A DNA stretch of 64,000 nucleotides from Aggregatilinea lenta (GTDB lineage Bacteria > Chloroflexota > Anaerolineae > Aggregatilineales > Aggregatilineaceae): positions 1 through 64,000 of the forward strand of contig NZ_BFCB01000002.1 in NCBI RefSeq assembly GCF_003569045.1. The letters are read 5' to 3'. Of the stretch, positions 32,565-60,119 are shown in pieces (the first letter of the stretch is position 1; each line of letters begins with the position of its first letter). A program made the position numbers and the translations under genes. Below the pieces are notes generated by a model. The model saw only the letters and a list, made by a program, of their open reading frames with translations, was not told the origin of the DNA and made no database searches.

Positions 32565-34397
32565 TTAGCCCCGGAACCCGCCACTGCCCATGCCACCGTT
32601 ACCGATCCACGTCACGACGCTGGACACGGTGAAGCTGGTGTAGGACGTGCCGGGCGTATAGCTCGCGTCCGTATACAGGCCGTCCGACTCAGCGCCGCTA
32701 GCCGTGCCGCCCAGGACCACCTCGTAGGTTTCGCCCGTGACGAGATCCGGCGAGGAGAACGCGATGGATTCGAACGCCTTCGAAGGCGCGAAGGTCAGCA
32801 CGTCCGTGCCATCGCTGGCCTGGATGTGAACCAGCGTGCCCGCCTGCTGCGCGCTGTCGAAGTTGACCAGCAGCGAGTTCTGCGTGGATGTTTCACCGGG
32901 TGCCTGGGCCATGCCCGCGCTGCCCGCCGTCACCAGGAAGCCGCCACTGATCGTGAACGAGCCGTCATAGTCCAGCGCGCCGTTCATGCGCTCGGTGGGG
33001 CCGTTCACGACGACCACACCGCCCGCCATGGTGATCGAGCCGTTCACGTCGATGCCGTCCCCGGTCGAGGCGATCACGATCGAGCCGCCGTTGATGGTCA
33101 GGGTATAGTCACCGCTCACCGCGACACCGCTCTGGGCCGCGCCATCCTGGGCAGGCATGCCGGGGTTCATCTGTCCCGCGTCGCCGGACTGCCCCATCCC
33201 GCCCGGACCGCCGCCACCCTGGCCGGGTCCCCACTGGTTACCGGAGCCGTCGTTGCCCCCGGCGACGTTCAGCGCGTCGTCGCTGGCGACCAGCCGCAGC
33301 GTGCCCGCGTTGATGGTGATCGCCGCGCTCTCGATGCCTTCGTACGACTGCACCACGTTCAGGTCGCCGCCGTTGATGTCCAGCGTCGTGTCGGCGTGCA
33401 CGCCGTCATCCCCGGACGCGATGGTGAATGTACCGCCGTTGATCACGATGCTATCATTGGAGTGGATGGCGTCGTCCGCCGCGTCGATGTTGAACGTGCC
33501 GCCGTCGATCTGCACGGTCACGCCCGCCTTGATGCCCTTCGCGGACAATGTCTCGTCGATGTAGGTGCCGCTGCCGCCACCAGAGAACAGGACGAAGTCG
33601 CCGCCGGTAATCGAGATGGACGTCGCCGCCGTGATCGCGTCGCCGCCTGCCGTGACGCTCAACGTGCCCGCTGTTACGGTGATGGTGCCCAGCGTCGCGT
33701 CTTCGTCGTTGTCGGCCTTCAAGCCGTCGCCGCCCGCTGCCACCGTGATCGTGCCATCCTCAATTACGAGGGCGTCCCTGCCCCGGATGCCGTCGTCCAC
33801 CGCGCTGACGGTGATCGTCCCGCCTGTGATGGTCAGTCCGTCCTTGCTGGCGATGCCGTCGTTATAGTTTCCCGCCACGGTCAGCGCGCCACTGCCGGAA
33901 ATGGTCACGTCGCTCTTGCTGAACAGCGCCGCGTTCGGCTCGTCCTCCTCCGGGTCGGCAAATACGTACGTCGTCGCATCCGACAGTGTATTCTCCGTGC
34001 CCGCGTCGAGCACGACTTCCACCGCTTCCGCATCCGCGATCACCAGCGGTGCGCTGGTCGAGCTGCTGATGTTCGCTCCGGCCAGGATCACCGTCACCGT
34101 GCCGTCGTCGACCGTGTCCACGACGATCTGCCCGTCCGCCAGCGTACCGCTGATGCGGTAAACGCCCGCCGCGCCAATGGTCGCCACACTGCCCTCGACG
34201 CTCACGCCATCGCCATCCACCGCGATCGCGTCACCGTTCAGCAGGATCTCCGTCGCGTCCGCGTCTTGCCACGCGCTGTCCTGCGCGGGAGCTTGAGCGC
34301 TCCCTGCCGACACCGGCAGCAGACCCTGGTCGTAAACCAAGCTGATCGCCAGCGCCACCACGCTTACCAGTAACCCCATCATCTTACGTTTTCCCAT
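32565..34397 (-). CDS. Exported beta-helix carbohydrate-binding-domain protein (DUF4353-like)
   Basis: 610 residues with an N-terminal hydrophobic export signal (about 7-32). Residues about 160-375 and 430-490 are a ladder of short repeats of the type ISGGTFTI followed by DDGIHSND, each ending in a turn with paired Asp. This forms a right-handed beta-helix, as in the carbohydrate-binding-domain-containing (DUF4353) family. A Gly/Met/Pro/Gln-rich linker (about 380-420) resembles the insert in the neighbouring CotH protein. The C-terminal end (about 500-600) is a separate beta-rich domain. ATG 34397 follows GGAGGGA; a longer frame to 34448 is less likely. It has its own phased boxes (34521-34548). 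Probably a cell-surface or matrix protein and possible CotH substrate (inference). Confidence 0.82.
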   Translation of the reverse strand: MGKRKMMGLLVSVVALAISLVYDQGLLPVSAGSAQAPAQDSAWQDADATEILLNGDAIAVDGDGVSVEGSVATIGAAGVYRISGTLADGQIVVDTVDDGTVTVILAGANISSSTSAPLVIADAEAVEVVLDAGTENTLSDATTYVFADPEEDEPNAALFSKSDVTISGSGALTVAGNYNDGIASKDGLTITGGTITVSAVDDGIRGRDALVIEDGTITVAAGGDGLKADNDEDATLGTITVTAGTLSVTAGGDAITAATSISITGGDFVLFSGGGSGTYIDETLSAKGIKAGVTVQIDGGTFNIDAADDAIHSNDSIVINGGTFTIASGDDGVHADTTLDINGGDLNVVQSYEGIESAAITINAGTLRLVASDDALNVAGGNDGSGNQWGPGQGGGGPGGMGQSGDAGQMNPGMPAQDGAAQSGVAVSGDYTLTINGGSIVIASTGDGIDVNGSITMAGGVVVVNGPTERMNGALDYDGSFTISGGFLVTAGSAGMAQAPGETSTQNSLLVNFDSAQQAGTLVHIQASDGTDVLTFAPSKAFESIAFSSPDLVTGETYEVVLGGTASGAESDGLYTDASYTPGTSYTSFTVSSVVTWIGNGGMGSGGFRG

Positions 34398-34520
34398 CGA
34401 TCCCTCCAGGCATTCCCTGATCTTGGCCACCGCTGCGGGGCCAGTCATTCACATTACGAGTGGACACCGCGACGCCGGAGCCGATCCGGTATCACAATGC
34501 CCCAACAATACCTGCAAGTT

Positions 34521-35151: not shown

Positions 35152-36177
35152 ATGCCGGCACCGACCCTGAACGACGTCGCCGAGCGCGCGCACGTTTCCC
35201 GCGCCACCGTTTCGCGCGTGCTCAACAACAACCCCAACGTCACCGACGAGCTTCGGCTGCGTGTGCTTGAGGCGATCCAGGTCCTGGGTTACCGTCCCAA
35301 CCAGGCCGCGCGGCGGCTGCGGGGCAGCACCAGCGACGTGTTGGGCCTCATCATCTCCGACATCGAAAATCCCTTCTTCATCTCCGTGGTGCGCGGCGTC
35401 GAAGACGCGGCTTACCAGCAGCAGATGAGCGTCGTGCTGTGCAACTCCGACGAAAATCCGGCCAAGCAGAACATGTACCTGCGCGTCATGCAGGCCGAAA
35501 GCGTCGCCGGGCTGATCGTCTCCCCAACGCACGTCGACGAGCGCGCGGCCCTGGCCGAGCTGAGCGCGGGCGGTATGCCGATCGTGCTGCTCGACCGCAC
35601 CACCAAGAGCATCAGCGCGGACGCAGTACTGATCGACAACGTCGGCGGGGCGCTGGCTGCCGTGAAGCACCTGATCGACCTCGGCTATACGCGCATCGCG
35701 ACCATCGCCGGATCGTCGCAGCTCACCACGGGCTACGAGCGCCTGGAGGGCTATCGCAGCGCGCTGGACGCCGTCGGGATGACCTTCGAGCGCGGGCTGG
35801 TGCGCACCGGCGACTTCAAGATCGAGAGCGGCTACCGCCTCATGCGCGAGCTGCTGGCCACCCCCACCCCGCCGGATGCAGTGTTTGTCGCCAACAACCT
35901 GATGACGCTGGGCAGCCTGCGCGCCGCACATGAGCTGGGCGTGCGCATTCCGGACGACGTCGCACTGATCGGCTTCGACGACATGCCCTGGTCCGGCGAG
36001 CTGTGCCCGCCGCTGACCGCCGTCGCGCAGCCGACCTACGAACTTGGCCAGGAGGCGGTCCGGCTGCTGCTGCGCAGGCGTGCCGATCCGAATGCGTTTT
36101 ATCATACGATCGTGCTCCAGCCCCGGCTCGTCGTGCGGGAATCGTGCGGCGCGCTGCTGCACCAGAGGAGGCATTGA
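35152..36177 (+). CDS. LacI-family transcriptional regulator
   Basis: 341 residues. The N-terminal LacI helix-turn-helix and hinge are clear: LNDVAERAHVSRATVSRVLN, then LGYRPNQAARRLR. The effector domain follows, with GLIISDIENPFFISVVRGVE, VAGLIVSPTHVDE, IVLLDRTT, TTGYERLEGYRSAL and DVALIGFDDMPW. The stop codon is directly followed by the GTG start of a sugar ATPase, so it is in the same operon as the transporter it presumably controls. It acts in the cytoplasm as a DNA-binding dimer, released by a sugar ligand. It is also a candidate for the palindrome at 5872-5887. Confidence 0.94.
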   Translation: MPAPTLNDVAERAHVSRATVSRVLNNNPNVTDELRLRVLEAIQVLGYRPNQAARRLRGSTSDVLGLIISDIENPFFISVVRGVEDAAYQQQMSVVLCNSDENPAKQNMYLRVMQAESVAGLIVSPTHVDERAALAELSAGGMPIVLLDRTTKSISADAVLIDNVGGALAAVKHLIDLGYTRIATIAGSSQLTTGYERLEGYRSALDAVGMTFERGLVRTGDFKIESGYRLMRELLATPTPPDAVFVANNLMTLGSLRAAHELGVRIPDDVALIGFDDMPWSGELCPPLTAVAQPTYELGQEAVRLLLRRRADPNAFYHTIVLQPRLVVRESCGALLHQRRH

Positions 36178-37746
36178 GTGGCCGATCAATCACCGCCCAT
36201 CCCGGCGGCGGACGACACACCGTCCATCCTCAGCATGCAGGACATCACCAAGCGCTTTCCGGGTGTCATCGCGCTGGACGGCGTGACCTTCGACGTGCAC
36301 CCCGGCGAAGTACACGGCCTTGTGGGCGAAAACGGTGCGGGCAAATCGACGCTCATGAACATCATGAGTGGCGTCTACACCGATTACGAAGGCCGCCTGC
36401 TGCTCAATGGCGAGCCGGTCCGCTTCCACAACCCGCGCGACGCTCAAAACGCCGGAATCGTCATGATTCACCAGGAACTAAACCTCGTCCCGGAACTGAC
36501 CGTGTACGAGAACATCTTCCTGGGCCGCGAGCACAAGACCTTCGGCGCGATCATCAACCGGCGCAGCATGCGGCGCACCGCGCAAAAGCTGATGTTCGAT
36601 CTCGGCCTGGATATCGACCCCAACTGCCCCATCAACCAGATGCGCGTCGGGCAGCGGCAGCTCGTCGAGATCGCCAAAGCGCTCAATCTGAACTCGCGCA
36701 TCATCATCATGGACGAGCCGACGTCCGCGCTCAGCGATGCGGAGGTGGCGTACCTGTTCAACGTGATCCGGGGACTGCGTGCCCACGACGTCGCCGTGAT
36801 TTACATCTCGCACCGGCTGGACGAGATCTTCGCCATCGCGGATCGTATCTCGGTGCTGCGCGACGGGCGCGTGGTCGGCACGTCGCTGGCAGCGGATATC
36901 TCGCGCCAGGAACTAATCAACCGCATGGTGGGCCGCAGCCTGGACGTGCTCTATCCGAAGGAAGACGTAGAGATCGGCGGCACGCTGCTGCGGATCGAGA
37001 ACCTGAGCCTGCACCAGGGCCGCGCGCAGATCCTGGACAACATCTCGCTGCACGTTCAGCGCGGCGAGATCGTCGGCGTGGCCGGGCTGATGGGTGCGGG
37101 GCGCACGCAGCTGCTGGAGACGATCTTCGGCGTTTACCCGCACAGCCAGGTCAGCGGCACAATCTGGTTCGGCGGGCAAGAACGCGCGATCCACTCGCCT
37201 AAAGAGGCCATCGAGATGGGCATCGGCCTCATCGCAGAGGACCGCAAAGGCCAGAGCCTCGTGCTGGAACAGTCCGTGACGGAAAACGCCACACTCGCCG
37301 CGCTGCGCGAATTTTTCTATGCCCTCAACATCATCAATCACGGGGCGGAGCGCAAAGCGGTATCCGGCATCGTCAACGATCTGAACATCAAAACGCCCAG
37401 CATCCGCACGATGGTCGCCAACCTCAGCGGCGGCAACCAGCAGAAGGTCGTCATCGCCAAGTTCCTGTTGGCGAACATCAAGCTGTTTCTGCTGGACGAA
37501 CCAACGCGCGGCATCGACGTCGGCGCGAAGGCCGAGGTCTATCACCTGATCGGCGAGCTGGCCCAACAGGGAACCGGCTTCCTACTGGTGTCGAGCGAGC
37601 TACCGGAACTGCTAGCGATCTGCGACCGCATCGTCGTGTTGTGCGATGGCCGCCTGACCGGTGAGTTCGCGCGCGAGCACTTCGACCAAGCCGCCATCAT
37701 GGAAGCTGCGACCCGTTTCACCGATACCGAAAGCTTGCCCGCTTAA
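36178..37746 (+). CDS. Sugar ABC transporter ATP-binding protein (double ATPase)
   Basis: 522 residues. Domain one: Walker A GENGAGKST, signature MRVGQRQLVEI, Walker B IIIMDEPTSALS. Domain two: GLMGAGRTQLLETI, LSGGNQQK and LFLLDEPTRGID. A GTG start abuts the LacI stop with AGAGGAGG in front, so I kept 36178. It is followed by the permease after 27 bases. This is an RbsA/MglA/XylG-type ATPase; the XylG group is close by layout (binding protein last), but that is weak evidence. Confidence 0.94.
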   Translation: MADQSPPIPAADDTPSILSMQDITKRFPGVIALDGVTFDVHPGEVHGLVGENGAGKSTLMNIMSGVYTDYEGRLLLNGEPVRFHNPRDAQNAGIVMIHQELNLVPELTVYENIFLGREHKTFGAIINRRSMRRTAQKLMFDLGLDIDPNCPINQMRVGQRQLVEIAKALNLNSRIIIMDEPTSALSDAEVAYLFNVIRGLRAHDVAVIYISHRLDEIFAIADRISVLRDGRVVGTSLAADISRQELINRMVGRSLDVLYPKEDVEIGGTLLRIENLSLHQGRAQILDNISLHVQRGEIVGVAGLMGAGRTQLLETIFGVYPHSQVSGTIWFGGQERAIHSPKEAIEMGIGLIAEDRKGQSLVLEQSVTENATLAALREFFYALNIINHGAERKAVSGIVNDLNIKTPSIRTMVANLSGGNQQKVVIAKFLLANIKLFLLDEPTRGIDVGAKAEVYHLIGELAQQGTGFLLVSSELPELLAICDRIVVLCDGRLTGEFAREHFDQAAIMEAATRFTDTESLPA

Positions 37747-37773: not shown

Positions 37774-38853
37774 ATGGGAACAGCCACTTCCACGCCCAGC
37801 CAGGAAACCGTCGAACAAGGACGGCGCACGATAAACCGGATCGTGAGCCTTATCTTCCGCTTTCAAAGCTTCTTCGGCCTGATTATTGTGTTCGCGCTGG
37901 CCATTTTGTATTCGCCGATCCGCAGCGGTGACAACATCTTTTTGAGCGAGCGCAACCTGAGCAACGTCACGCGCGACGTGTCGGAAACCGGCATTCTGGC
38001 GACGGGCCAGCTGCTGGTGATCCTGATCGCCGGAATCGACCTGTCGGTCGGCTCAGTCGTGGCGCTGGCGGCTACCGGTACCGCCTACCTGCTGATGCGC
38101 GAGGGCGCGCTCAACCTGCCCCTGATCGGCAGTGTGGACGTCTCGCCGATGGGCGCCGAACCAACCATCCTGGTGATTCTGGCGATGGGACTGATTATCG
38201 GCTGGTGGAACGGCTGGACCTCGGAGCGCTTCAAGATCCCGTCGTTCGTGACGACGCTGGCCATGCTCAGCATCGCGCGCGGGCTGGCGCATATCTGGTC
38301 GGACAACATCGCCGTGCCGATCTCGTATCGCGCGGGCGGGGCCGATCCGTCTTTTGAGATCCTGCGCGAGCGCGTCTACAACGACCTGATCCCGGTCCCC
38401 GCGATCATCATGTTCGTCGCCGCCATCGTCATGGCGCTGGTGCTGCACTACACGTCCTTCGGGCGGCACCTGTACGCGATTGGCGGCAACCAGACCGCCT
38501 CCCGCCTGTCGGGCATTTCGGTCACGCGCATCAAGATCCTCGCCTTCATGCTGTGCAGCTTCTTCGCGGCGATGGCGGGCATCGTGCATGCCGCGCAGCT
38601 CAACCAGGGCAGCCCCAACGAGGCCGTCGGCTACGAGCTGAACGCAATCGCGGCGGTCGTGATCGGCGGCGCAAGCCTGATGGGCGGAAAGGGTACGATT
38701 ATCGGCGCGATCGCCGGGGCGTTCATTCTCGGCATTCTCGACAACATGCTCAGCCTGAACAACGTCGACAGCAATACACAGCTGGTCGTCAAGGGACTGC
38801 TTGTGCTCGGCGCAGTCGCCTTGCAGCAGCTCCGCCCCCGTGACGTGGAATAG
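37774..38853 (+). CDS. Sugar ABC transporter permease
   Basis: 359-residue RbsC/XylH-type membrane protein. Landmarks are LLVILIAGIDLSVGSVVAL, the unusual loop NGWTSERFKIPSFVTTLAML, FGRHLYAIGGNQTASRLSGI and VIGGASLMGGKGTIIGAIAGA. The N-terminal cytoplasmic segment of about 30 residues is polar. It is located between the ATPase and the duplicated binding protein on the plus strand. Confidence 0.93.
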   Translation: MGTATSTPSQETVEQGRRTINRIVSLIFRFQSFFGLIIVFALAILYSPIRSGDNIFLSERNLSNVTRDVSETGILATGQLLVILIAGIDLSVGSVVALAATGTAYLLMREGALNLPLIGSVDVSPMGAEPTILVILAMGLIIGWWNGWTSERFKIPSFVTTLAMLSIARGLAHIWSDNIAVPISYRAGGADPSFEILRERVYNDLIPVPAIIMFVAAIVMALVLHYTSFGRHLYAIGGNQTASRLSGISVTRIKILAFMLCSFFAAMAGIVHAAQLNQGSPNEAVGYELNAIAAVVIGGASLMGGKGTIIGAIAGAFILGILDNMLSLNNVDSNTQLVVKGLLVLGAVALQQLRPRDVE

Positions 38854-38935: not shown

Positions 38936-41116
38936 ATGAAAACCACTAGAATGATCGCTTTAGTCCTGGTCCTGGCCGCAATCCTGCTGGCCCCGCAGAT
39001 CGCACCCCAGAAGACCGCCGCGCAGGGCGGCGACGAATGGGTTCCCTACACCGACGATATGCTCGGCGGTGGGACCGTCAAAGAAGACGCCCGCGCCGAA
39101 GGGCCACTGCCCGACGGCTGCCCTGTTCCCGAAGCCAAAGATAGCTACGTGATCGGCATGTCACAGGCCAATCGCGCCGAACCCTGGCGCGAGGCGATGG
39201 ACAGCCAGATCGCCGCTGCTGCCGAGGATTACCCGGATATCGAGGTCATCTTCCAGGACGCCGCGCAGGACAACGCCGATCAGGTCAGCGACGTCGAGAA
39301 CCTGCTAACCCAGGGCATCGACCTGCTGATCATTTCCCCGAACGAAGCTGCCCCGCTGAACGACATCGTGCGCGAGGCGTGGGAAAGCTGCGTGCCGGTG
39401 ATCGTGCTCGACCGCAATCTGGTCGATCCCAACTACTCGATGTTCATCGGCGCGGATAACGTGGCGATCGGTCAGGCTGCCGGGGAATACGCCGCGCAGT
39501 GGTGCGCCGACAACGGCCATGACCCGTGCGAAATCGCGGAGATCCGGGGGCTGGAGGGCGCGCCGCCCGCCAAAGATCGCGGTGACGGCTTCCGCATGGG
39601 CCTCGAAGCGGGGGGCATGGACCCCGACGCCGCGATCATCTTCTCGCAAAACGCGGACTGGCTGCGCGAGCGGGCCGTGCCTGCCGCCGCAGCCGCATTC
39701 CAGGCGTATCCTGACGTAGACGTGCTCTACGGCCACAACGACCCGATGGCCGAGGGCGCGTACATCGCCGCGCAGGACGCGGGCGTGGACGTGAGTAGCA
39801 TCCTGTTCGTCGGTATCGACGCGCTGCCCACCCCCGACGGTGGCATCATGTCCGTGCTCGAAAGCCGCCTCGGCGTGACCTTCGTCTACCCGACCGGCGG
39901 TCGTCAGGCGATCGACTGGGCGCACCGTATCCTGGTGGATCACGTCAATCCGCCGTTGTGGGAAGTGCTGCCGTTCGACACGGTCGCGCCGGACAATGCG
40001 CAGGACGTGTGCAACACCTTCAACTGCCCGAACGCGCAGGCCGGTACGCCCGCCCCAACCGAAGCTGCCGCTGACGAGGCCGCGATGGCCCCCGCCGCCG
40101 AAGGCTGGACGATGTACACCGACGACATGGTGGACGGCACCGTGCTGGAGGGCTGGGAGTACCCGGCTAATGGCTCCGCGCTGCCCGACGGCTGCCCTGT
40201 TCCCGAAGCCAAAGATAGCTACGTGATCGGCATGTCACAGGCCAACCGCGCCGAACCCTGGCGCGAGGCGATGGACAGCCAGATCGCCGCTGCTGCCGAG
40301 GATTACCCGGATATCGAGGTCATCTTCCAGGACGCCGCACAGGACAACGCCGATCAGGTCAGCGACGTCGAGAACCTGCTAACCCAGGGCATCGACCTGC
40401 TGATCATCTCCCCGAACGAAGCTGCCCCGCTGAACGACATCGTGCGCGAGGCGTGGGAAAGCTGCGTGCCGGTGATCGTGCTCGACCGCAATCTGGTCGA
40501 TCCCAACTACTCGATGTTCATCGGCGCGGATAACGTGGCGATCGGTCAGGCTGCCGGGGAATACGCCGCGCAGTGGTGCGCCGACAACGGCCATGACCCG
40601 TGCGAAATCGCGGAGATCCGGGGGCTGGAAGGCGCACCGCCCGCGAAAGATCGCGGTGACGGCTTCCGCATGGGCCTCGAAGCGGGGGGCATGGACCCCG
40701 ACGCCGCGATCATCTTCTCGCAGAACGCGGACTGGCTGCGCGAGCGGGCCGTGCCTGCCGCCGCAGCCGCATTCCAGGCGTATCCTGACGTGGACGTGCT
40801 CTACGGCCACAACGACCCGATGGCCGAGGGCGCGTACATCGCCGCGCAAGACGCGGGTGTGGACGTGAGCAGCATCCTGTTCGTCGGCATCGACGCGCTG
40901 CCCACCCCCGACGGCGGCATCATGTCCGTGCTCGAAAGCCGCCTCGGCGTGACCTTCGTCTACCCGACCGGCGGTCGTCAGGCGATCGACTGGGCGCACC
41001 GCATCCTGGTGGATCACGTCGTGCCGCCGCAGTGGGTCGTCCTGCCGTTCGACACGGTCGCGCCGGACAATGCGCAGGATGTGTGCAACACCTTCAACTG
41101 CCCGAACGCGCAGTAG
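38936..41116 (+). CDS. Double-headed sugar-binding protein with two near-identical binding domains
   Basis: 726 residues, about twice the usual length of an RbsB-type binding protein. A signal peptide of about 30 residues ends near TAAQGG. Two copies of a complete binding domain follow, at residues about 58-368 and 416-726, with only three amino-acid differences that I can see (all near the final strand). The landmarks SYVIGMSQANRAEPWREAMD, FQDAAQDNADQVSDVENLL, VIVLDRNLVDPNYSMFIGAD and YGHNDPMAEGAYIAAQDAG occur twice. A Pro/Ala-rich linker of 47 residues joins them. Four Cys per copy are spaced to allow disulfides. ATG 38936 after TAGGAG was chosen; the frame to 38801 overlaps the permease. 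Last gene of the operon. Confidence 0.9.
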   Translation: MKTTRMIALVLVLAAILLAPQIAPQKTAAQGGDEWVPYTDDMLGGGTVKEDARAEGPLPDGCPVPEAKDSYVIGMSQANRAEPWREAMDSQIAAAAEDYPDIEVIFQDAAQDNADQVSDVENLLTQGIDLLIISPNEAAPLNDIVREAWESCVPVIVLDRNLVDPNYSMFIGADNVAIGQAAGEYAAQWCADNGHDPCEIAEIRGLEGAPPAKDRGDGFRMGLEAGGMDPDAAIIFSQNADWLRERAVPAAAAAFQAYPDVDVLYGHNDPMAEGAYIAAQDAGVDVSSILFVGIDALPTPDGGIMSVLESRLGVTFVYPTGGRQAIDWAHRILVDHVNPPLWEVLPFDTVAPDNAQDVCNTFNCPNAQAGTPAPTEAAADEAAMAPAAEGWTMYTDDMVDGTVLEGWEYPANGSALPDGCPVPEAKDSYVIGMSQANRAEPWREAMDSQIAAAAEDYPDIEVIFQDAAQDNADQVSDVENLLTQGIDLLIISPNEAAPLNDIVREAWESCVPVIVLDRNLVDPNYSMFIGADNVAIGQAAGEYAAQWCADNGHDPCEIAEIRGLEGAPPAKDRGDGFRMGLEAGGMDPDAAIIFSQNADWLRERAVPAAAAAFQAYPDVDVLYGHNDPMAEGAYIAAQDAGVDVSSILFVGIDALPTPDGGIMSVLESRLGVTFVYPTGGRQAIDWAHRILVDHVVPPQWVVLPFDTVAPDNAQDVCNTFNCPNAQ
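39107..40039 (+). repeat. Intragenic duplication, unit 1
   Basis: 933-bp unit encoding one whole binding domain, repeated at 40181-41113 with an offset of exactly 1074 bases (358 codons). The nucleotide differences I see are few and mostly at third codon positions, so selection on protein sequence or gene conversion keeps the copies alike. Confidence 0.88.
40181..41113 (+). repeat. Intragenic duplication, unit 2
   Basis: Second 933-bp unit, ending immediately before the stop codon. A shorter, diverged echo of the region before it (TDDM followed by a Gly/Thr/Val stretch) is also present before each unit, so the original duplication was larger than the part still near-identical. Confidence 0.88.
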
Positions 41117-55483: not shown

Positions 55484-57427
<1,944 letters not shown>

Positions 57428-57481: not shown

Positions 57482-58549
57482 TTAGAGCTTCGCACTCCGA
57501 TCTTGAATCCGTTGTTGTAGCTGGTCGATGACCACAGCCAGGATGATGACACCACCGGTGATGACCATCTGCCAAAAGGAGCTGACACCCTCGATAACCA
57601 TGCCGTTGCGCAGCACGCCGATGACGAATGCGCCGACGATCGTGCCCAAAATGGTGCCGCGCCCGCCCGCGAGCGAGGTTCCGCCCAGCACCACGGCGGC
57701 GATGGCGTTCAATTCATACGACTCGCCGGTGGCTGGGTGCGCCGCAACAAGCTGCGACGTCACGATCAGGCCCACGATGGCGGCGCAGAAGCCGGAAATA
57801 ACGTACGTCAGCAGCGTGACGCCCTTCACCCGCACGCCCGAAAGCTGTGCGGCGCGGCTGTTGCCGCCGATAGCGTACACCTGCCGCCCGAACGGCGTTT
57901 TACGCGTGATGAAGATGGCGACCAACGCCAGCGCGATCATGATCCAGATCGAATAGGGTAGCCCCAGGAAACTATCTCGCCCCAGGCTGGGGAAACCCGT
58001 GTTGCCCAGTGCCGGATCGCCCACCAGATTGGGGAAGGTCGCGCCGTTGTTAGAGAGCATTGCAAACCCGCGCGCCATGTACAGCGTGCCCAATGTGGCG
58101 ATAAATGGCGCGACGTTAAAGCGCGTAATCAGCAAGCCGTTGATGAGGCCGACCAGCATGCCCAGCCCCAGCGCGATCGCGGCGATGACCCACACATTGA
58201 AGTAGACGACGCGGTTCAGCGGCGAGAGGATCAGGCCCTCGTTAATCAGCCCGCCCGCGATCATGCCCGTCAGGCCGACGATGGATCCCACCGACAGGTC
58301 GATGCCGCCGGTCAGGATGACGAACGTCATCCCGACACCGAGCACGGCGTTGATCGCCACCTGCTTGGCCAGGATGATCTGGTTGCCTTCCATCAGGAAC
58401 GGGTCGGACCGCAATGCGAAGAACCCGAAAACGATAAACAGCGCAATGAAGGCACGCAGTTGCAGCGCGAGCTGCCGCAGCGAGACGTTGTTACGCGGGC
58501 GCGCCGGGGCCTGAGGCTGAGCGCCGGGACGCATATCAATTTCCGCCAT
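57482..58549 (-). CDS. Sugar ABC transporter permease
   Basis: 355-residue RbsC-type membrane protein. Landmarks are FVILTGGIDLSVGSIVGLT, NGLLITRFNVAPFIATLGTLY, the ATPase-contact loop GRQVYAIGGNSRAAQLSGV and VVLGGTSLAGGRGTILGTIVGA. A polar Pro/Ala/Arg N-terminus of about 25 residues precedes helix one. Its start overlaps the ATPase stop by 14 bases, the same overlap length as in the operon at 15600-18162. Confidence 0.93.
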   Translation of the reverse strand: MAEIDMRPGAQPQAPARPRNNVSLRQLALQLRAFIALFIVFGFFALRSDPFLMEGNQIILAKQVAINAVLGVGMTFVILTGGIDLSVGSIVGLTGMIAGGLINEGLILSPLNRVVYFNVWVIAAIALGLGMLVGLINGLLITRFNVAPFIATLGTLYMARGFAMLSNNGATFPNLVGDPALGNTGFPSLGRDSFLGLPYSIWIMIALALVAIFITRKTPFGRQVYAIGGNSRAAQLSGVRVKGVTLLTYVISGFCAAIVGLIVTSQLVAAHPATGESYELNAIAAVVLGGTSLAGGRGTILGTIVGAFVIGVLRNGMVIEGVSSFWQMVITGGVIILAVVIDQLQQRIQDRSAKL

Positions 58550-60119
58550 TGGAAGTGTTATCCTTTCGTGCTAGCTCGTGACCGATGGCGGACGCTTCGA
58601 CCAACGCCTGTTGGGTCGCCTCGGTGCGATCAAATTCTTTTGTAATCCGGCCCTTGGACATGACGAGGATCCGATCGGCCATCGCCATGATCTCTTTGAG
58701 TTCCGTCGAAACGAAGATGATGCCCAGGCCCTGCGCCGCCAGATTGCGCATGATCTGGAAGATCTCTTCCTTCGCACCTACATCGATGCCGCGCGTCGGC
58801 TCGTCCATCAACAGGATCTTGGGCGAGGTCAGCAGCGCCTTCGCCACCACGACCTTCTGCTGGTTGCCGCCGCTCAGCGACGAGACGAGGTGCTGCGGGC
58901 TACTCACCTTGATCGAAAGTTCCTTGATCAGCCGCGTGATGCTCTCGTTCTCTTTTGCCGCCGAAAGGAAAAAGCTGCGCATGTAGCGTCTGAGACTGGC
59001 GAGCAGCATGTTATCGGCGATGCTTAGTTCTTGCACGAGGCCCTCGCGCTGGCGGTCTTCGGGGATGATCATCAGGCCCTGGGCGATGCGGCTATCGATC
59101 AGCCCGCGCACCTTGCGATCGTTGATCCTGATCTCGCCCGACGCTTCAGGGTGCAGGCCCATGAGGCATTCGAACATTTCTGTGCGCCCTGCCCCCATCA
59201 GACCGTACACGCCCAGAATCTCGCCCGCGCGCAGGCTGAAGGAGACGTCTTCGAGCAGGTGACCGCCACCCGGCTTGGGCAGCGTGATGTGGTTGACGTC
59301 CAGGATCGGCTCACCGAATTCGTGTTGCGGCGGATGGTAGACCATTTCCGTTTCGCGCCCGACCATGCGCTCGATGATCCAGGGCAGGTCCACCTTGCCC
59401 ATCGGCGCCTCGGCAATCAGGCGACCGTCGCGCAGAACAGTGATCACATCGCCGATCTGCATCAGTTCTTCGAGCTTGTGCGAGATGTAGATGATCGAGA
59501 CACCCGCCGCCTTGAGGTCCTCGATCACGGTGAACAGCACCTCGACCTCGGCATTGCTAAGCGCGGAAGTCGGCTCGTCCATGATCAGGATCTGCGTGTC
59601 AAAGGCGAGCGCCTTGGCGATCTCCACGATCTGCTGCTGGCCGATGCGCAGGTTCTGCACCAGCGTGCGCGGATCGATCGGCTGCTCCAGCCGCGACAGC
59701 AGAGCGCGCGTGCGGACTTCCTGCATGCGGTGTTTGATCACCGACTTGCCCTGCGTCAGCTCGTGCGCCATGAAGATGTTTTCGCTGACGTTGAGGTTCG
59801 GGAACAGGTTCAGTTCCTGGTAAATGATCCCGATGCCCTCTTCTTCCGCTTCTCGTGGCGACTTGGGCCGGATCTCTTTTTCTTCGAGCATCAGGCGGCC
59901 TTCGTTGGGCTGCTCGACCCCGGCCAGAATTTTCATCAGGGTCGATTTGCCCGCGCCGTTTTCGCCGACTAGCACGTTGACTTTGCCGCGATAGACGTTG
60001 AAGTCCACGTGGTCGAGCGCGACCGTGCCGGGATAGAACTTCGAGACCTGCTCGGCGCGCAGGATCACGCCGTCCGGCGGCGTTTGTGTTTGTGTTGGAG
60101 AGGCAGCAGGAGCAGCCAT
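58536..60119 (-). CDS. Sugar ABC transporter ATP-binding protein (double ATPase)
   Basis: 527 residues. Domain one: Walker A GENGAGKST, signature LRIGQQQIVEI, Walker B ILIMDEPTSALS. Domain two: GLMGAGRTEMFECLM, LSGGNQQK and ILLMDEPTRGID. The start codon overlaps the DUF2291 stop in the form TGATG, giving tight coupling. It energises the importer whose binding protein is the duplicated 55484-57349. Confidence 0.94.
   Translation of the reverse strand: MAAPAASPTQTQTPPDGVILRAEQVSKFYPGTVALDHVDFNVYRGKVNVLVGENGAGKSTLMKILAGVEQPNEGRLMLEEKEIRPKSPREAEEEGIGIIYQELNLFPNLNVSENIFMAHELTQGKSVIKHRMQEVRTRALLSRLEQPIDPRTLVQNLRIGQQQIVEIAKALAFDTQILIMDEPTSALSNAEVEVLFTVIEDLKAAGVSIIYISHKLEELMQIGDVITVLRDGRLIAEAPMGKVDLPWIIERMVGRETEMVYHPPQHEFGEPILDVNHITLPKPGGGHLLEDVSFSLRAGEILGVYGLMGAGRTEMFECLMGLHPEASGEIRINDRKVRGLIDSRIAQGLMIIPEDRQREGLVQELSIADNMLLASLRRYMRSFFLSAAKENESITRLIKELSIKVSSPQHLVSSLSGGNQQKVVVAKALLTSPKILLMDEPTRGIDVGAKEEIFQIMRNLAAQGLGIIFVSTELKEIMAMADRILVMSKGRITKEFDRTEATQQALVEASAIGHELARKDNTSNGGN

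Follow-up and report, generated by a model that had tools for sequence, protein, structure and literature searches.

A secreted CUT2-type binding protein with two near-identical domains in Aggregatilinea lenta, and similar double proteins in its order

In type I importers, one binding protein docks across both permease halves, as in MalFGK2-MalE and related structures. The number of binding sites per importer and the value of tethering them have long been under study, mostly in systems with permease-fused domains such as GlnPQ. For the tandem domains of GlnPQ, local concentration or processive delivery has reportedly been proposed as the gain. In GlnPQ of Lactococcus lactis, two flexibly linked binding domains per chain serve one importer type; each of these domains binds on its own, and they compete with one another for docking (PMC8025302). 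The known binding proteins of CUT2 importers (ribose/galactofuranose/fructose), i.e., RbsB and YtfQ, possess one domain per chain. One domain is also present in BT1754, the periplasmic sensor of a hybrid two-component system, which binds fructose directly (PMC7782687). Tandem domains fused to permeases were found described in the literature covered, whereas free near-identical tandem binding proteins were not; this literature lacked most subscription journals, and priority is not established.

The window analyzed here comprises 64,000 nucleotides of Aggregatilinea lenta (contig NZ_BFCB01000002.1, positions 1 to 64,000). Its ORF 38936-41116 (+) encodes a 726-residue secreted protein, with AGGAG as ribosome-binding site about 10 nt upstream of the ATG at 38936. 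The gene is preceded, in this order, by genes for a LacI-type regulator (35152-36177, +; 341 aa; Pfam LacI 65 bits, Peripla_BP_3 136 bits), an RbsA/XylG-like ATPase with two nucleotide-binding domains (36178-37746, +; 522 aa; two ABC_tran stretches) and an RbsC-like permease (37774-38853, +; 359 aa; BPD_transp_2 149 bits), an order that represents a CUT2-type cassette. The best NCBIfam models for the ATPase were those of CUT2 ATPases, although its scores remained below the cut-offs of these models. Since there is a single permease gene, the permease presumably forms a homodimer. Elsewhere in the window, 32565-34448 (-) encodes a protein of 627 residues that looks secreted and contains many Gly/Asp-rich 'I.GGT..' repeats, and a long, spurious-looking ORF overlaps it on the opposite strand.

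The binding protein begins with a type I signal peptide (38936-39025, +) with cleavage near TAAQ/GG on inspection; a pattern test detected no lipobox cysteine after it. A 933-bp unit occurs twice (39107-40039 and 40181-41113, offset 1074 bp), and this repeat lies far beyond chance. The two copies differ in 23 of 933 bases and in 3 residues. In bases 1-840 of the unit there are 14 differences, each a synonymous change at a third codon position, while the remaining 9 fall into the last 93 bases and cause 3 residue changes (N/V, L/Q, E/V) and 2 silent ones. The repeated unit extends beyond 933 bp, as a segment of about 37 residues, related between the copies but diverged, lies ahead of each domain (DEWVPYTDDM... 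and EGWTMYTDDM..., about 51% identical). The signal peptide is followed on the plus strand by N-segment A (39026-39136), predicted to be mostly disordered, core A with 269 codons (39137-39943), C-tail A with the motif NPPLW (39944-40039), an Ala/Pro-rich linker of 20 aa (40040-40099), N-segment B, whose B-type is kept in orthologs (40100-40210), core B, identical in protein sequence to core A (40211-41017), and C-tail B with the motif VPPQW (41018-41113). About 57 residues, part of them predicted to be disordered, separate the end of tail A from core B. The original prediction of a single chain with two complete binding domains was confirmed to the exact coordinates, including unit length, offset and the three residue differences, as was its description as a free binding protein, i.e., secreted and separate from the permease gene.

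The target matched PF13407, a ribose/fructose-type binding domain, in two stretches with 262 bits (curated cut-off 35.1), and a double-domain ATPase and a BPD_transp_2 permease adjoin it, as in CUT2/RbsABC-like systems. It is assigned to the CUT2-type (PF13407) binding proteins of RbsABC-like importers, with sugar binding and transport predicted. RbsB and YtfQ share its domain family, operon kind and fold, but in contrast to their single domain the target has two, and it scored below the NCBIfam equivalog cut-offs for RbsB (193 vs. 337 bits) and YtfQ (207 vs. 510 bits), even when both domains were summed. Structure prediction, performed for one unit of the chain, gave a mean pLDDT of 89 with the first 27 residues disordered. 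The closest solved relative by sequence (E 1.7e-51; 35-37% identity) and by fold was the BT1754 fructose-binding domain 2x7x (Foldseek rank 1; VIA Z 34.8, rmsd 2.4 over 287 residues, 37% identity), which differs as a one-domain sensor from the two-domain, transport-type target. Since this closest solved relative binds fructose, the ligand may reasonably be guessed to be fructose or a sugar like it, and by this analogy there is an even chance that it is fructose itself. The genes neighboring the orthologs, as sampled in relatives, gave no hint at the ligand.

The preferred reading, to which a probability of about 0.45 is given as a whole, is that the target serves a CUT2-type importer as a soluble binding protein with homotypic tandem domains and acts as a re-docking carrier. 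Each chain would carry a pair of fructose-like monosaccharide molecules. One head would dock on the permease and deliver its sugar, the tethered second head would be loaded nearby in the meantime, and the two-headed protein would re-dock quickly. The advantage under selection would be local concentration or processive delivery, here by a protein not fused to its permease; by analogy with GlnPQ, local concentration and re-docking are named only tentatively as this advantage. A higher local concentration at the transporter, as suggested earlier, is plausible. GlnPQ differs in that its domains are permease-fused, come from a different family and fold class and do not share one specificity, whereas the target is free, with the permease encoded by a separate gene (37774-38853) and the protein ending after domain B, and has near-identical halves. 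It is unlikely that both heads dock together, one on each permease half; the earlier suggestion of simultaneous docking to both permease faces was not supported, one binding protein spanning both halves in type I importers.

The target is not the only protein of its kind in this genome. In a family search, nine genes, target included, had two PF13407 matches within a single frame, and all of them are adjoined by RbsA- and RbsC-like genes. Within a double, the halves share about 86-98% identity; between doubles, similarity drops to about 30% or less. The second one in the window (55487-57349, -; 621 aa, halves about 96% identical) is of the same kind but belongs to another PF13407 lineage, unrelated in sequence to the target. 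It adjoins an RbsC-like gene (57509-58474) and an RbsA-like gene (58539-60119), and its junction is common to orthologous doubles in families f1 and f8. Homotypic doubles made up 9 of the 22 PF13407 binding-protein genes (own-genome matches at E up to 1e-35), as compared to 0 of 81 PF01547, PF00496 and PF13458 matches (Fisher p 2e-7); near-identical doubling was found in none of the proteins of these three families in this genome. A genome-wide tendency to duplicate domains was rejected: in an 860-kb sample of the genome with 666 ORFs, all five near-identical whole-domain duplications, one of them seen via its antisense shadow ORF, were PF13407 doubles. Other internal repeats in the 860 kb were more divergent and mostly located in long repetitive proteins. 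Two frames of the genome with 2404 and 5168 residues (C2:281882-289093 and C3:924030-939533, both -) contain extensive internal repeats with identities of about 74% and 41%, respectively.

This distribution bears on the most probable rival, namely that doubling is a matter of dosage or economy, by which more external binding sites are obtained per secretion event and signal peptide and docking is ordinary. The halves are near-identical and hence offer no new specificity, and the protein is free with a long flexible linker, both of which would suit this explanation. It leaves unexplained, however, why PF13407 proteins were doubled in this genome but not the more numerous PF01547 proteins, and it is considered rather unlikely.

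The nearest orthologs of the target belong to MAGs named Aggregatilineales or Anaerolineae, by which the window was placed in this order. At least 31 doubles were present in 20 of 60 other genomes of the order, in seven of eight sampled families, whereas 120 genomes from elsewhere in the phylum yielded 2 (in G156 and G170) and none was found among about 155 matches listed from 12 actinobacterial and proteobacterial genomes; assembly quality was not matched between these three samples. In 40 homotypic doubles of the order, the identity between halves was 76-100%. The architecture recurs in many PF13407 lineages across the order. The claim that duplicated domains are unusual thus stands for bacteria at large, but not for this order, where they are common, and what surprises is not so much the single gene as the recurrence across the order. 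Within one transporter class, tens of free two-headed proteins can be compared here with relatives that have a single head. It may be, though this is doubtful, that the order repeatedly built free two-headed CUT2 binding proteins whose heads are kept identical by gene conversion since bivalent processive feeding is advantageous. If true, this would be a third arrangement of importer binding sites, beside free single-domain and permease-fused ones.

The history of the duplication was read from its parts. Core A and core B of the window are identical in all 269 residues (100%; pS 0.07), as compared to 88% (pS 0.43) between core A of the window and core A of D137_metabat.41 (L076). By contrast, N-segment B of the window is 84% identical to N-segment B of D137, and N-segments A and B of the window only 51% to each other. 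Accordingly sorted trees were obtained: that of the N-segments, with 36 columns only, joined window B and D137 B (95/97), while that of the cores joined A with B inside each genome (identical; 90/91). D137_maxbin.019 (L078) showed the same within-genome similarity of halves over the part available. The C-tail motif is likewise position-specific, with NPPLW in A and VPPQW, VPPRW or APPGW in B. Because N-segments and C-tails sort by position and cores by genome, we infer with high confidence that the duplication in the target group predates the split of the genomes and that the cores were homogenized later in each of them. Gene conversion is the usual cause of such homogenization. Since then, the 269-codon core has accumulated 14 silent and 0 amino-acid changes, a result whose chance is roughly 2e-9 on the assumption that one in four random changes is silent. 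This 14:0 ratio demonstrates constraint on both halves, i.e., purifying selection on both cores. Both heads are very probably functional. Of selection and gene conversion, offered earlier as alternatives for keeping the copies alike, both are supported, by this ratio and by the grouping of cores by genome and of N-segments by position.

Across the order, a tree of 117 domains (quick method) showed doubles scattered among singles, with 19 state changes, which is not a count of origins since some singles may be collapsed doubles; at least 9 of the 19 are forced by well-supported branches. In three orthogroups, the linker is kept across families (for example, PLPPAYPP.DG in f1, f2, f4, f6 and f8) and the halves mostly pair within families or genera. 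This points to old fusions that were homogenized afterwards. Such near-identical halves under concerted evolution across families represent a clear homogenization inside bacterial coding sequence. Both this homogenization and the coming and going of doubles on the tree would also be expected if an occasional harmless in-gene tandem duplication persisted neutrally and recombination kept its halves alike. Long direct repeats are readily deleted in bacteria, yet several doubles share their linker across families, and the strong restriction to one protein class argues against neutral persistence as well, which makes it improbable.

A further rival is retention: without an outer membrane, a 75-kDa protein with two heads, or one with two points of contact to permeases, may be less easily lost than a free 35-kDa protein. 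Chloroflexota are thought to lack an outer membrane. A lipobox was found in 0 of 30 doubles and in 5 of 46 singles, and lipoproteins are found in the one-domain ortholog L074 and among the singles that neighbor one clade of doubles, all of which would speak for retention. However, the difference is not significant (p 0.15), most singles lack a lipobox as well, and both doubles outside the order carry one. These two doubles resemble the target in having two near-identical PF13407 domains (halves 99.7% identical in G156 and 93.4% in G170), but differ from it by the lipobox and are rare in the sample outside the order; therefore, this architecture is not confined to free proteins. A link between doubling and a missing lipid anchor was rejected as weak and contradicted by these cases, and retention is regarded as quite improbable. 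Among the PF01547 and PF13407 proteins checked in the own genome and the family, nearly all signal peptides end in AQ without a lipobox, which is odd for this phylum.

Finally, doubling of a single-domain gene by the assembler could be suspected as several short-read relatives have one domain, but it was rejected as very unlikely in view of the 23 base differences, the unique 171-bp stretch between the units with its linker, the conserved position-specific residues and the independent assemblies, including another double in the single-contig genome G170. The target is almost certainly a real double gene. The comparison of the same locus in related genomes, proposed originally as a check, revealed the double gene in L076 and L078. 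One-domain relatives, which together with doubled coverage in this assembly had been named as evidence against the duplication, were indeed found, among them L074 on a contig of 862 kb; therefore, two heads are not indispensable. Since the contig edge falls inside the repeat in several orthologs (L082, L085, L110/L105, L111/L092), fragmented assemblies probably undercount doubles. Near-identical halves would explain why short-read assemblies of the order break, and perhaps collapse, at double genes.

Tandems with unequal halves were also observed. The two PF13407 domains of L259 (G041:C54:31100-34600, minus strand) are only 29% identical, so two-headed proteins with dissimilar heads occur as well; a frame of equal length is present in G186. 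In the own genome, a 794-residue heterotypic tandem with Peripla_BP_6 followed by Peripla_BP_4 (C2:235823-238204, -; L222:15823-18204) is adjoined by an RbsA-like gene and two RbsC-like genes, and a 683-residue frame (C3:2316482-2317936, -) contains two unequal SBP_bac_3 (PF00497) stretches and is GlnPQ-like in form.
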